Source of the DNA: Seonamhaeicola sp.
GTDB lineage: Bacteria; Bacteroidota; Bacteroidia; Flavobacteriales; Flavobacteriaceae
Direction of reading: 5' to 3'
Assembly (NCBI RefSeq): GCF_028281565.1
Contig: NZ_JANQJQ010000018.1
Span: 124,001-188,000 of the forward strand
DNA: 64,000 nucleotides
Part shown: piece by piece, positions 1,263 through 41,300 of the stretch
How the letters are laid out: the number at the start of each line of letters is the position of its first letter
How positions within the stretch are numbered: the first letter of the stretch is position 1
The notes under the pieces: model-generated
The model's database searches: none
Told to the model about the DNA's origin: nothing
Seen by the model: only the letters and a program-made list of their open reading frames with translations
Made by a program: the position numbers and the translations under genes

Positions 1263-1290
1263 GGATTCCCGCTTTCGCGAGAATGACAAT
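1263..1290. repeat. Flavobacterial intergenic repeat element
   Basis: The stretch GATTCCCGCTTTCGCGAGAA followed by TGACA has a CGC-TTT-GCG hairpin core and resembles a widely dispersed flavobacterial repeat. The small hairpin CTTAGC-GCT-GCTAAG at 1231-1245 lies just before it. No coding content. Confidence 0.5.
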
Positions 1291-13548: not shown

Positions 13549-14472
13549 CTAATCTTTTACAAAATCAATATTCCTTTTTAAGCCGCTAAACTTGGTACGC
13601 TTTACGGCCGATTTCTTAAATACTTTGCGAAACGTTTCTTCGGTAATTTCTTCCCAGTCTTTTTTTGACATGGATAATAATTCCGGATGTGGATTGAACA
13701 AAGGTTCCTTATGCGGTTTTGAAAACCGATTCCATGGGCATACATCCTGGCAGACATCACAGCCAAACATCCAATCGTCAAATTGGCCTTTGTATTCAGC
13801 AGGAATGTTATCTTTTAACTCAATGGTAAAATAGGAAATACATTTACTGCCGTCAACTACATAAGGTTCTACTATGGCTTGTGTTGGGCAAGCCTCTATA
13901 CAAGCCGTACAGCTACCACAATGATCGGTTGTTGGGGCATCATAATCTAATTCCAAATCCACAATCAATTCAGCTACAAAGTAAAATGATCCCACTTGTT
14001 GGGTTAATAAATTGCTATGCTTGCCTATCCATCCCAGTCCGCTTTTTGCTGCCCAGGCTTTATCAAGCACTGGAGCGGAGTCTACAAAGGCGCGTCCGTT
14101 CACCTCGCCAATTTCTTCCCGGATAAATTGTAACAGTGATTTTAATTTGTCTTTTATCACAAAATGATAATCGGTTCCGAAGGCATATTTGGAAATCTTA
14201 TAGCTGTTACTATTTTGTTCTTCCTGAGGATAATAATTTAGTAATAAGGAAATCACACTTTTTGAACCTTCTACCAGTTTTGTGGGATCTAATCGTTTAT
14301 CAAAATGGTTTTCCATATAACGCATCTCCCCATGCATGTTTTGGTTTAACCAAGTTTCCAATCGCGGTGCTTCTGCTTCTAAAAATTCCGCTTTACTTAT
14401 ACCACATGATAAAAAACCGAGGCGCTTTGCTTCGGTTTTGATAAGTTGGGTATGTTTAGTTTTTGAAGTCAT
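13549..14472 (-). CDS. queG: Epoxyqueuosine reductase
   Basis: A 307-residue cytosolic enzyme that reduces epoxyqueuosine to queuosine in the wobble position of GUN tRNAs, using cobalamin and two [4Fe-4S] clusters. The N-terminal cobalamin-binding reductase domain has [20 protein letters not shown] and KHSNLL. The C-terminal ferredoxin part has [12 protein letters not shown] and [11 protein letters not shown], the two cluster motifs with all eight cysteines. It is shorter than the E. coli protein, as is common in Bacteroidota, where the extra C-terminal repeats are missing. Other queuosine genes are not nearby. It lies downstream of the GIY-YIG gene on the same strand, with one arm of an inverted repeat in the gap. 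Confidence 0.96.
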
Positions 14473-14510
14473 GATTATGAGACCAAGCCAAAATTGAAAT
14501 ATGTAACGAT

Positions 14511-14532
14511 GTCACACTGAGCGCAGTCGAAG
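14511..14532. repeat. Left arm of inverted repeat enclosing the GIY-YIG gene
   Basis: A 22-nt arm containing CTGAGCGCAGTCGAAG (14517-14532). Its inverted partner is at 14870-14891; the 16-nt core is identical and the whole 22 nt differ at two positions. The arm ends 7 nt from the stop codon of the GIY-YIG gene. It is also weakly self-palindromic (CACTGAG...AAGTG at 14515-14534). Confidence 0.85.
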
Positions 14533-14539
14533 TGCTAAT

Positions 14540-14851
14540 TTAGCTATTATATTTATAGTGTGTAGCATTTCTGCATTCTGACAGTATTTTAAGCATATCG
14601 TAATCACCATTTATTAAAGCTTGTTTCTTAGCTCGAGTCCAACCCTTAATTTTCTTTTCAAAATAAATTGCCTGAAGTACATCATTAAATTCCTGATAAA
14701 ACTCTAAGGATAAAGGTCTTCGCTTAAAAGTATACGCGTCTTTTTTATAACCTGCCTGATGTTCTTCAATCCTTTTGCTTAAATCGTTGGTTATTCCAAC
14801 ATAAAAAGACTCGTCAGAACACTTGAGTATATAAATGTAGTAGATATACAT
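14540..14851 (-). CDS. Small GIY-YIG nuclease family protein
   Basis: A 103-residue single-domain protein of the GIY-YIG fold (UPF0213/YhbQ-like size). The opening YIYYIYILKC and YVGITNDLSKRIEEHQ give the two conserved tyrosines, the glycine and the arginine, and FEKKIKGW supplies the conserved Glu of the active site. GIY-YIG domains cut DNA; short stand-alone members have no settled role. What is unusual is the setting: the gene is enclosed by a perfect 16-bp inverted repeat 7 nt after its stop and 18 nt before its start, forming a compact unit of 381 bp (14511-14891). Short GIY-YIG genes are known to occur in many copies in flavobacteria. A mobile, repeat-linked nuclease is my inference. 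Confidence 0.9.
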   Translation of the reverse strand: MYIYYIYILKCSDESFYVGITNDLSKRIEEHQAGYKKDAYTFKRRPLSLEFYQEFNDVLQAIYFEKKIKGWTRAKKQALINGDYDMLKILSECRNATHYKYNS

Positions 14852-14869
14852 ATTGATATTATAATTGGG

Positions 14870-14891
14870 CTTCGACTGCGCTCAGCCTGAC
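14870..14891. repeat. Right arm of inverted repeat enclosing the GIY-YIG gene
   Basis: The arm contains CTTCGACTGCGCTCAG (14870-14885), the exact reverse complement of the core at 14517-14532. It begins 18 nt before the GIY-YIG start codon and 12 nt after the ruvB stop. No clear target-site duplication is visible outside the two arms. Confidence 0.85.
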
Positions 14892-14903
14892 ATAAGGAAT
14901 AGG

Positions 14904-15926
14904 TCAAAACAAGCCACCCTGAATATTGCCTTTTATTTTACCCAAATGTTTATAAGCCAATTCTGTAACTTCACGTCCGCGTGGTGTGCGCATAATAAAG
15001 CCTTGTTGGATTAAAAAAGGCTCGTAAACCTCTTCAATGGTCTCAGGGCTTTCACTGACAGCTGTGGCAATCGTAGTGATACCAACAGGGCCTCCTTTGA
15101 ATTTATCTATAATGGTCGATAATATTTTGTTATCCATATCGTCTAATCCGTGTGCATCAACATTCAATGCTTCCAGTGCGAATTTTGCTATTTTAATATC
15201 AATGTTCCCATTCCCTTTTATTTGGGCAAAATCACGTACACGACGCAACAAGGCGTTGGCAATGCGAGGTGTTCCCCTGCTTCGTCCTGCAATTTCAATA
15301 GCTGCTTCCATGGAAATTGGCACATCTAAAATAGAAGCACTACGCTGGATGATGGTAGTCAATAAATCGGTTTTATAATATTCCAACCTGCTTTGAATGC
15401 CAAAACGCGCACGCATTGGCGAGGTTAATAACCCCGAGCGTGTAGTTGCTCCAACAAGTGTAAAAGGATTTAAATTAATTTGAACCGTGCGGGCATTGGG
15501 ACCAGACTCAATCATGATGTCGATCTTATAATCCTCCATGGCAGAATACAAATACTCCTCCACAATGGGACTTAACCGATGGATCTCATCAATAAACAAT
15601 ACATCACGCTCTTCTAAGTTAGTAAGTAACCCTGCCAAGTCTCCGGGTTTATCTAATACCGGTCCTGATGTAACCTTTATACCTACACTTAATTCATTGG
15701 CCAGAATATGTGCCAGGGTAGTTTTTCCTAATCCCGGTGGGCCATGAAACAAGGTATGGTCTAAGGCTTCGCTACGCAGATTGGCTGCCTGAACAAACAC
15801 CTGAAGGTTTTCCAGTACCTGATCCTGACCTGTAAAATCATCAAAAGCTAAGGGCCTTAACTTTTTTTCTACGTCTAATTCTTCAGGAGAATAGTTTTCG
15901 CTGGATGGGTTTAGGTTTTCGTTCAT
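14904..15926 (-). CDS. ruvB: Holliday junction branch migration ATPase RuvB
   Basis: A 340-residue AAA+ motor that, with RuvA, drives branch migration. Walker A is GPPGLGKT (residues 62-69), Walker B FIDEIH (111-116), followed by the sensor-1 region LVGATTRSG and arginine finger region RARFG; the C-terminal winged helix ends with the typical RGREVT. I chose the ATG at 15926. A longer frame opens at 15971, but its extra residues read CHSERSEES, the well-known translation of an intergenic repeat, so this part is untranslated leader. A TATATTTG box at 15973-15980 would start the transcript just before that repeat. Confidence 0.96.
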
Positions 15927-15965
15927 AAGAGATTCTTCACTACGTTCAGAATGACAAAAAATTCT
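15927..15965. repeat. Intergenic repeat in the ruvB leader
   Basis: On the minus strand this reads TCATTCTGAACG followed by TAGTGAAGAATCTCTTA, a dispersed repeat common in Bacteroidota. It directly precedes the ruvB start codon and so probably provides the ribosome-binding region. Translated in frame with ruvB it gives the artefactual peptide CHSERSEES. Confidence 0.75.
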
Positions 15966-15972
15966 ATACAAG

Positions 15973-15980
15973 CAAATATA
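15973..15980 (-). promoter_or_regulatory. Probable ruvB promoter (-7 box)
   Basis: TATATTTG matches TAnnTTTG. TTTC or GTTT occurs 16-17 nt upstream, inside the terminator hairpin of the preceding gene (15985-16014), so promoter and terminator overlap. Confidence 0.5.
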
Positions 15981-15984
15981 AAGA

Positions 15985-16014
15985 AAAAGCCTTTCCGAAA
16001 CAGAAAGGCCTTTT
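15985..16014 (-). terminator. Intrinsic terminator after the ABC transporter operon
   Basis: AAAAGCCTTTC and GAAAGGCCTTTT form a hairpin around CGAAACA, with T-runs on both strands. It begins 4 nt past the stop of the permease-peptidase gene and separates it from ruvB. Confidence 0.85.
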
Positions 16015-40639: not shown

Positions 40640-41100
40640 CCTTACTCCCCTCTTACTCGAACTAGCTGTGCCCACGGGTATATTTAGATTAATTTAACCC
40701 TCCTAATCCCGATTTCCATCAGGATCCGCCTCCCTTAAAAATAAGGGAGGAGCCGGCTATTCCGGTATTATTGTCTTAGCGGTTCAAACCACCCTTTCTT
40801 TAGCTCTCACCTTAAATTTTAAGGGGAGAATGAATTTCGATTTTCTTAAAATCGGAAGAAAGAGGGGTTTTATCTCAATTATTTTGGCAAATTGAGAAAT
40901 TTATGATTGGAACGCATGGCATGGAGCTATGACGCAGGTTAAGTGAGCTACTTAGTTCTACGTCGGCCTACTAAGGATGTGGTACGCGGTAGCTTTCTAG
41001 AGGGGAAACTCATACCCTATATTTTTTAAGCAACAGTTTCCCTCCTAACCTTGTGCTGAGCTTAGTCGAAGTAAAGGAGGGATTAAGGGAAGTGTAAAAC
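40640..41100. repeat. Array of composite palindromic elements in an 846-bp gene-free gap
   Basis: The gap 40491-41336 has no credible gene. It contains several palindromic units. CCTCCCTTA/TAAGGGAGG forms a hairpin at 40729-40750. At 40786-40870 an outer stem (AAACCACCCTTTCTT with AGAAAGAGGGGTTT) encloses two hairpins, 40806-40828 (CTCACCTTAA...TTAAGGGGAG) and 40838-40854 (CGATTTT-CTT-AAAATCG). CTCAATT/AATTGAG follows at 40874-40896. TCCCTCCT (41039-41046) pairs with AGGAGGGA (41075-41082) around a GCTGAGCTTAGTCGAAG core. The ACACCCCTTACTCCCCTC-like piece near 40634 recalls the elements beside the DUF559 gene at 58551. Confidence 0.7.
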
Positions 41101-41206: not shown

Positions 41207-41220
41207 TATAACTTTTTTTG

Positions 41221-41300
41221 TCATACTGAACTCGTTTCAGTATCTCAGAACATTAAAATTAATACTTTTATGAGACCTTGAAATACTGAAACAGGTTCAG
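41221..41300. repeat. Inverted pair of palindromic repeat elements after infB
   Basis: CTGAACTCGTTTCAGTA at 41226-41242 and its inverted relative TACTGAAACAGGTTCAG at 41284-41300 face each other. Each is itself partly palindromic (CTGAA...TTCAG). The right copy continues into CACAGGCAAGTTCAAGGTGACA. The pair sits between the infB stop and the operon terminator, so it would be in the 3' end of the transcript. Confidence 0.6.

Follow-up and report, generated by a model that had tools for sequence, protein, structure and literature searches.

A stand-alone GIY-YIG nuclease gene enclosed by inverted, outward-tagged REPs: a candidate RAYT-like element of the CGTC class

The window—the whole 64,000-nucleotide stretch of a Seonamhaeicola sp. 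contig that was analysed—contains a REP-nuclease-REP unit (14510..14892), delimited from the sequence and by comparison with congener loci. The unit lies between two minus-strand ORFs, which we take to be ruvB (14904..15971, the site marker in congeners) and a queG-like gene (13549..14472), both outside the unit. Its single gene, on the minus strand (14540..14851), encodes a stand-alone GIY-YIG nuclease of 103 aa, as judged from the ORF list, PF01541 and its PDB relatives. In agreement with the initial annotation, CTGAGCGCAGTCGAAG is present at 14517-14532 (+) and its exact reverse complement at 14870-14885, with gaps of 7 nt and 18 nt to the enclosed ORF and with matches at 20/22 positions once the outer 6 nt are included. 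The 16-mer is, however, only part of a longer element, TGTCA-nn-CTGAG-CGCAGT-CGAAG-nn, whose nn positions differ between the two arms (GG..CC vs CA..TG), yet pair within each arm. The arm 3' of the stop codon (14510..14534, plus strand) reads TGTCA-CA-CTGAG-CGCAGT-CGAAG-TG and the arm 5' of the start codon (14868..14892, minus strand) reads TGTCA-GG-CTGAG-CGCAGT-CGAAG-CC; in both, assigned from the sequence and from the covariation of 65 type C copies described below, the tag faces outward. Rfam returned no match over 14300-16000 of the window.

Lone TGTCA-tagged hairpins were read from the sequence at three other positions: 1265..1287 (minus strand; type A, TGTCATTCTCGCGAAAGCGGGAATCCA), 15932..15955 (minus strand; a different REP type, TGTCATTCTGAACGTAGTGAAGAATCTC) and 41220..41243 (plus strand; type B, TGTCATACTGAACTCGTTTCAGTATCTC). 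Among the related cores proposed initially, one could be placed by a mismatch scan of the window at 41056..41071 (plus strand) as a degenerate type C core with 2 mismatches, whereas 13394 and 46905 hold nothing within 3 mismatches. At ≤3 mismatches, 3 copies of the 16-mer core were found in the window, both arms included, against 0.15 expected by chance. Genome-wide, at ≤2 mismatches and with the central base left free, there are 105 copies (53 + 52) vs 3 (1 + 2) for the reversed pattern.

The structure of the repeat was examined in a covariation set of 65 distinct copies of YYGAGCGNAGTCGARR with their context, drawn from the collected loci and the window. Counted from the outside inward, complementarity at the four outer stem pairs amounts to 86, 98.5, 98.5 and 100% of the copies vs 40, 30, 53 and 55% after shuffling, and the second of these pairs occurs as four kinds of base pair; the two inner stem positions were restricted to pyrimidine-purine by the search pattern itself. 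The TGTC 5' of the stem is unpaired and 81 to 87% conserved per base across the same copies. Stem covariation and the unpaired, conserved TGTC thus identify type C as a structure-conserved REP with an unpaired tag. We relied on covariation because DNA folding energy was uninformative—both window arms fold no better than shuffles (z 0.32 and 0.35)—and the stem contains a tandem G.A. In a separate case (L078), the upstream type C arm is apparently broken in its loop by ~45 nt of extra sequence, as read by eye. One nuclease clade has longer arms (GTCACTTCGAGTG ... TGTATCGAGAAGT; loci L077, L086, L090, L102, L110, L069, L070 and L224), apparently a further REP type.

The window protein matches PF01541 with 65.7 bits (cut-off 22.6) as a single GIY-YIG domain, and across this domain it shows clear sequence kinship with UPF0213/YhbQ/YazA (COG2827), the group of its closest PDB relatives, 1zg2 and 1ywl. 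The residues Y6, Y16, R26 and E64, which we take to be the catalytic Tyr, Tyr, Arg and Glu of the GIY-YIG superfamily, are kept in about 100% of 238 to 242 aligned domains. No HUH Y1 transposase fold was found in the protein, PF01541 alone lying above its cut-off and the T5orf172 match falling below its own; an ordinary IS or RAYT is ruled out by the lack of an HUH domain. A search of the protein against NCBIfam gave only a weak group I intron endonuclease match, far under the cut-off. The C-terminal tail varies by nuclease clade (CRNATHYKY in that of the window) and is a candidate for repeat recognition. At three loci (L001, L010 and L009), REP arms overlap the ORF ends and add short repeat-encoded tails or heads, such overlaps being a possible source of misannotated termini. 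The named plasmid-collection records label these nuclease genes only 'GIY-YIG nuclease family protein' or hypothetical.

Enclosure of GIY-YIG genes by inverted arms was defined by an inverted-repeat score of ≥14 between the upstream and the downstream flank. The window genome has 15 PF01541 genes: two long frames (611 and 457 aa), two beside a tRNA gene (L002, L013) and 11 short ones away from tRNA genes. Eight of these 11 score ≥14 (L001, L004, L006 and L008-L012), L009 through a loose alignment, though its arms are visible by eye; the remaining three (L003, L005, L007) score 8 to 9.5. By eye, the arms in this genome are of several REP types, with a GTC tag in most and a decayed tag in L012. 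A broader family set comprised the window genome plus one genome per genus, with 29 new loci and 40 further stretches in listing order, among the matches listed; three genes were left out, 2 for cut flanks and 1 for a length above 200 aa, and gene copies in overlapping loci were counted once. Here, 35/86 short GIY-YIG genes score ≥14 vs 2/132 other ORFs of the same loci and 37/1290 mismatched flank pairs, and 4 of the 35 belong to a sister clade described below. Together, the core counts against expectation, the genome counts against the reversed pattern and the family-set controls rule out a chance origin of the arm-gene pairing.

Enclosure was also found far outside this family. The many-phyla set was obtained by a protein-similarity scan of named genomes with A1 as query, which favours this nuclease clade, and consists of the best 80 of 548 confirmed places, with 1 gene with cut flanks left out; 62/81 of its genes score ≥14 vs 8/241 other ORFs. 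Mismatched flank pairs also score high in these best 80 of 548 places (332/1215) because type A arms resemble one another, so that the other-ORF control is the one that counts there. For the order of Devosia, a search of 81 genomes, from which 29 new loci were taken, gave 14/28 vs 4/40 controls. For 16 genomes of the phyla set (best 80 of 548 places), which partly repeat genes already in the many-phyla count, the figures are 18/28 vs 3/47, with outward tags on both sides in 11/28 vs 2/47; 2 genes over 200 aa and 1 with cut flanks were left out of the Devosia-order and 16-genome sets. Moreover, a sample of 12 of 36 plasmid-collection records—picked for variety, some of them chromosomes by size—contained 10/12 enclosed genes in a count made without a control, 6 of them with outward tags on both sides; the records without enclosure (2/12) were Photobacterium sp. 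GJ3 and Rhizobium sp. L51/94. In Azospirillum lipoferum 4B (L326), the unit is located between sufB and sufC, with CGTCATCCCCGCGAAGGCGGGGATCCA on both sides. Across 105 enclosed genes, the arms lie a median of 4 nt past the stop codon on one side and, on the other, a median of 28 nt ahead of the conserved domain. At one locus (L070, genome G012), two nuclease genes encode the same protein, have the same enclosing repeats and are separated by about 1.04 kb.

The tags have a preferred identity and orientation. In the many-phyla set (best 80 of 548 places), outward GTC-tagged hairpins occur on both sides of 53/81 genes and inward ones on both sides of 9, while outward GTC tags on both sides were found at 2/115 control ORFs >350 nt away and at 8/238 of all control ORFs. 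Other tags—GAC, CAG, TCG, ATG and CTG—gave 0, 0, 1, 3 and 8 of 81 in the same best 80 of 548 places. Under a strict outward-tag test, the family set yielded 11/86 vs 0/132 other ORFs; in the order of Devosia, only 7/28 genes have outward tags on both sides vs 3/40 controls. When all genes scoring ≥14 were pooled (105/186) and classified by a simple pattern, the tag faced outward in 69, inward in 7, both ways in 3 and neither way in 26. The tag on the flanking REPs was TGTC or CGTC rather than GTAG. At least one gene scoring ≥14 with outward tags on both sides was found under 13/25 phylum labels, some of them unclassified records (best 80 of 548 places). The pairing is shared by Pseudomonadota, Chloroflexota, Myxococcota and several candidate phyla within these places; the flavobacterial scope given in the initial annotation was therefore too narrow, and the many-phyla set and the plasmid-collection records rule out a strictly flavobacterial feature.

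In a tree built from 105 proteins of the family and genus sets, two clades separate, one of 75 members (hereafter the REP clade) and one of 30 (the sister clade). Under a relaxed test, outward tagged arms on both sides are present in 17/75 REP-clade genes, 0/30 sister-clade genes and 0/156 other ORFs. By score alone, 39/75 REP-clade genes reach ≥14 vs 4/30 in the sister clade, three of these four (L059, L071, L106) looking terminator-like by eye. Tagged arms are absent from the sister clade, so enclosure by such arms characterises one clade and is ruled out as a property of all short GIY-YIG genes. The refuting result named in the initial annotation, other GIY-YIG genes without these arms, was thus obtained in part: for the sister clade, and for the 36/75 REP-clade genes below the cut-off. 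The 30 sister-clade genes are distributed over 22 loci, with a tRNA gene present in 15/22 (L002, L013, L079, L093, L064, L104, L229, L230, L234, L217, L103, L105, L100, L059 and L047). The tRNA neighbours are Val, Pro, SeC, Arg, Met, Leu, Ala, Asp and Asn, often very close and sometimes accompanied by tandem nuclease copies; the sister clade may represent a parallel tRNA-linked homing system.

Arm similarity and protein similarity are correlated, with a Mantel r of 0.60 in the family and genus sets (43 genes) and 0.43 in the phyla set (62 genes, best 80 of 548 places); 0/2000 permutations reached the observed value in either case. For the 27 genes with a classed arm, mapping the REP class onto the tree requires 4 changes for 4 classes, whereas 200 shuffles required 13 on average and never fewer than 9; the changes drop to 3 after relabelling L097, whose arm is of type A by eye. 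In these arm and protein comparisons, repeat type follows nuclease clade.

We also compared repeat copy number with nuclease content in 66 genomes, counting as related any relative of the window nuclease at E 1e-12. Five or more type C copies occur in 23/29 genomes with a related nuclease vs 4/37 without, a comparison of related genomes that ignores kinship, and in 10/10 genomes with a close relative of the window nuclease vs 17/56 (kinship likewise ignored). With kinship ignored, type B likewise reaches five or more copies in 6/6 genomes with a close clade B nuclease vs 15/60 without. In rank regressions that ignore kinship and score as clade B-positive one genome whose clade B gene is fragmented, type B depends on clade B (t 4.3), not on clade C (t 0.4); for type C, the dependence on clade C (t 3.1) exceeds that on clade B (t 1.7). 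Both copy-number effects are still significant with one genome per genus (3 and 7 nuclease-bearing genomes). Genomes with the matching nuclease thus tend to have more repeats of types B and C, but there are exceptions: type C copies were counted in G017 (31), G056 (16), G024 (15) and G019 (9), none of which has a matching nuclease at E 1e-12, and 6/29 genomes with a related nuclease have <5 type C copies.

Gene-less REP pairs mostly show the same orientation as the unit. Among neighbouring type C copies ≤150 nt apart (11 genomes, 150 copies), 15 pairs are inverted with tags outward, 3 are inverted with tags inward and 5 lie on the same strand. The two copies are 43 to 46 nt apart in 11/15 of the tag-outward pairs, 8/15 of which come from G017; two pairs of this genome (L301, L305) are near-identical over the unit and differ in their surroundings, and one gene-less inverted pair was read in the window genome (L307). 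In arrangement, these pairs resemble REPINs.

Presence and absence of the unit differ between sister species. The empty sites asked about in the initial annotation do exist: 0/6 congeners have a GIY-YIG gene after ruvB. Read by eye, 4/6 congeners keep ruvB next to queG, two with one TGTC-tagged REP at the site, one with decayed sequence and one with none; the single REPs in G061 and G062 are of another type than the window arms (by eye). In G065, one REP directly follows ruvB, with a neighbour other than queG (by eye). Between trpB and trpA, a type A unit is present in 3/7 genomes of the genus, the window's own included (with decayed tags there), again by eye; at this position, G061 and G062 have, in place of the unit, two inverted REPs of other or mixed types with their tags outward, and of the remaining two congeners one has another insert ending in a REP and one has neither (all by eye). 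In three other genomes, one locus is occupied by nucleases of two clades with different arms (L056, L218 vs L224). L056 has ~85 bp of the downstream gene's 5' end repeated upstream of its REP-nuclease-REP unit (by eye), as if the target had been duplicated by insertion or repair.

Some units are, conversely, inherited in place, as indicated by the 37 of 234 similar-nuclease pairs (both clades, different loci) that share a flanking protein. The shared neighbour lies on the opposite side in L004/L078, L097/L237 and L008/L098, which might reflect inversion. Several units occupy the same locus across genera; they are, then, not always moving.

Considering these results together, we regard it as probable that the 0.38-kb unit is an autonomous REP element, made up of a nuclease gene and inverted cognate REPs with their tags outside, and that it works like a RAYT/REP system with an unrelated enzyme. 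Enclosure of one clade far above that of other genes and the six congeners without the unit support the putative RAYT-like role first suggested for the GIY-YIG nuclease, which came through most of the computational checks proposed with it. In RAYT/TnpA-REP systems, too, inverted REPs of matching type enclose a small enzyme gene, a tag lies by the hairpin and gene-less inverted pairs occur. A RAYT is, in contrast, an HUH/Y1 transposase with a covalent tyrosine link and a GTAG tag, whereas here a GIY-YIG nuclease is combined with a TGTC/CGTC tag. We know of no bacterial GIY-YIG enzyme that acts as a transposase, and hydrolysis alone does not join DNA. Cleavage and spreading by the nuclease would, we infer, begin with recognition of the cognate tagged hairpin, single-stranded or as a cruciform, once extruded; the enzyme would then nick or cut it, and copying in repair or lagging-strand replication could place a REP, a REP pair or the entire unit elsewhere, in some cases at a position already taken by another REP. 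Points against this explanation include the 36/75 REP-clade genes below the cut-off, the low counts of outward tags in the order of Devosia and in the family set, the exceptions to the copy-number trend, the units that stay at one locus across genera, the folding energies of the window arms, the near-identical REP pairs of G017, a genome without a matching nuclease, and the 7/105 enclosed genes with tags inward and 26/105 with neither orientation.

In a different, though unlikely, account, REPs spread by other means and the nuclease uses them merely as an insertion or cleavage site, like a free-standing homing endonuclease gene. Such endonucleases, of which I-TevI and the Seg type are examples with a separate DNA-binding region, resemble the unit in having a GIY-YIG catalytic domain, a small mobile gene and presence/absence at a site. 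Absence from the corresponding site in relatives is seen here too (0/6 congeners after ruvB, 4 with ruvB and queG adjacent). This account gains from the congeners that have a single REP (G061, G062, and G065 after ruvB) or a REP pair (G061 and G062, trpB-trpA) where the window genome has a unit, from the wealth of repeats and REP pairs in G017 without a matching nuclease, and from the different nuclease clades with different arms at one locus. Yet the copy numbers of types B and C both go with their matching nuclease, that of type B with clade B and not clade C; repeat type tracks nuclease clade; and the REPs at the empty ruvB-queG site differ in type from the window arms. To our knowledge, moreover, free-standing GIY-YIG homing endonuclease genes do not have inverted copies of a genome-wide repeat at their borders.

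A domesticated role in maintenance seems improbable: the nuclease would clear REP hairpins or cruciforms and stay because host and repeats need it. Units fixed at one locus across genera and the intact catalytic residues fit with this, as does a passage of a review that groups E. coli YhbQ and B. subtilis YazA with the structure-selective nuclease Slx1 as one family; but neither the own-type inverted repeats at each nuclease's borders nor the patchy presence among congeners would be explained. Passive accumulation, whereby REPs gather round dispensable small genes or act as terminators and have no dealings with the nuclease, can draw on the abundance of REPs between genes and on the 4/30 sister-clade genes with high scores, three of them terminator-like, but it is highly improbable given that the equally small sister-clade GIY-YIG genes have outward tagged arms on both sides in 0/30 cases, that control ORFs of the same loci are rarely enclosed, and that type matching and the copy-number correlation would go unexplained.

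The reading of the unit as an autonomous REP element connects it to the CGTC REP superfamily. Passages of Di Nocera et al. 2013 (PMC3733652) state that these REPs 'apparently lack a dedicated transposase' and suggest that their enzyme may have disappeared. In the description given there, the superfamily has a CGTC/TGTC tag, a stem-loop, frequent inverted dimers and a range of bacterial groups overlapping with ours; an unpaired CGTC/TGTC tag beside a stem-loop is likewise found in type C (65 copies). The same text specifies a tag, a stem of 8-9 bp whose first two positions are AT, a loop of 4-5 nt and a CCA tail. Many type A arms, e.g., TGTC-ATTCCTGC-GCAG-GCAGGAAT-CCA, fit its tag, 8-bp stem, 4-nt loop and CCA tail, whereas in the window's type C, compared by description, the stem is interrupted by G.A, the loop is 6 nt long and the CCA tail is missing. 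Two species named in the text of PMC3733652, Azospirillum lipoferum and Novosphingobium aromaticivorans, carry a REP-enclosed GIY-YIG gene. No associated enzyme is reported in those passages, whereas a GIY-YIG nuclease clade is associated with the repeats here. Among the open-access matches listed (titles, abstract starts and term counts), no literature link between a GIY-YIG nuclease and REPs was found, and subscription journals or preprints may hold one. One Moraxella paper mentions both a RAYT and a GIY-YIG endonuclease, as separate entries in the passages covered, and a term search of a 2025 REP survey yielded no nuclease, transposase, GIY or RAYT in the text covered.

REPs are common bacterial repeats, with an enzyme known for the GTAG class and none found for the CGTC class according to the 2013 survey text (PMC3733652). 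The pairing described here supplies the CGTC class with a named candidate enzyme and each nuclease clade with a cognate DNA, and it offers a simple test of cleavage. Passages of PMC8266576 describe in vitro cleavage of tagged single-stranded REPs by TnpA-REP enzymes, for which the GTAG tag is important; a comparable assay is therefore available. The chances seem about even that this GIY-YIG clade comprises dedicated, independently evolved mobilisers serving the CGTC REP superfamily as a whole, with cutting done by a hydrolytic nuclease and joining by host repair. If so, the nuclease would be the dedicated enzyme reported as missing for CGTC REPs, doing with an unrelated protein the part that RAYT plays for GTAG REPs; GIY-YIG enzymes would drive a genome-wide repeat system in many phyla, and the partnership between REPs and an enzyme would have evolved at least twice.
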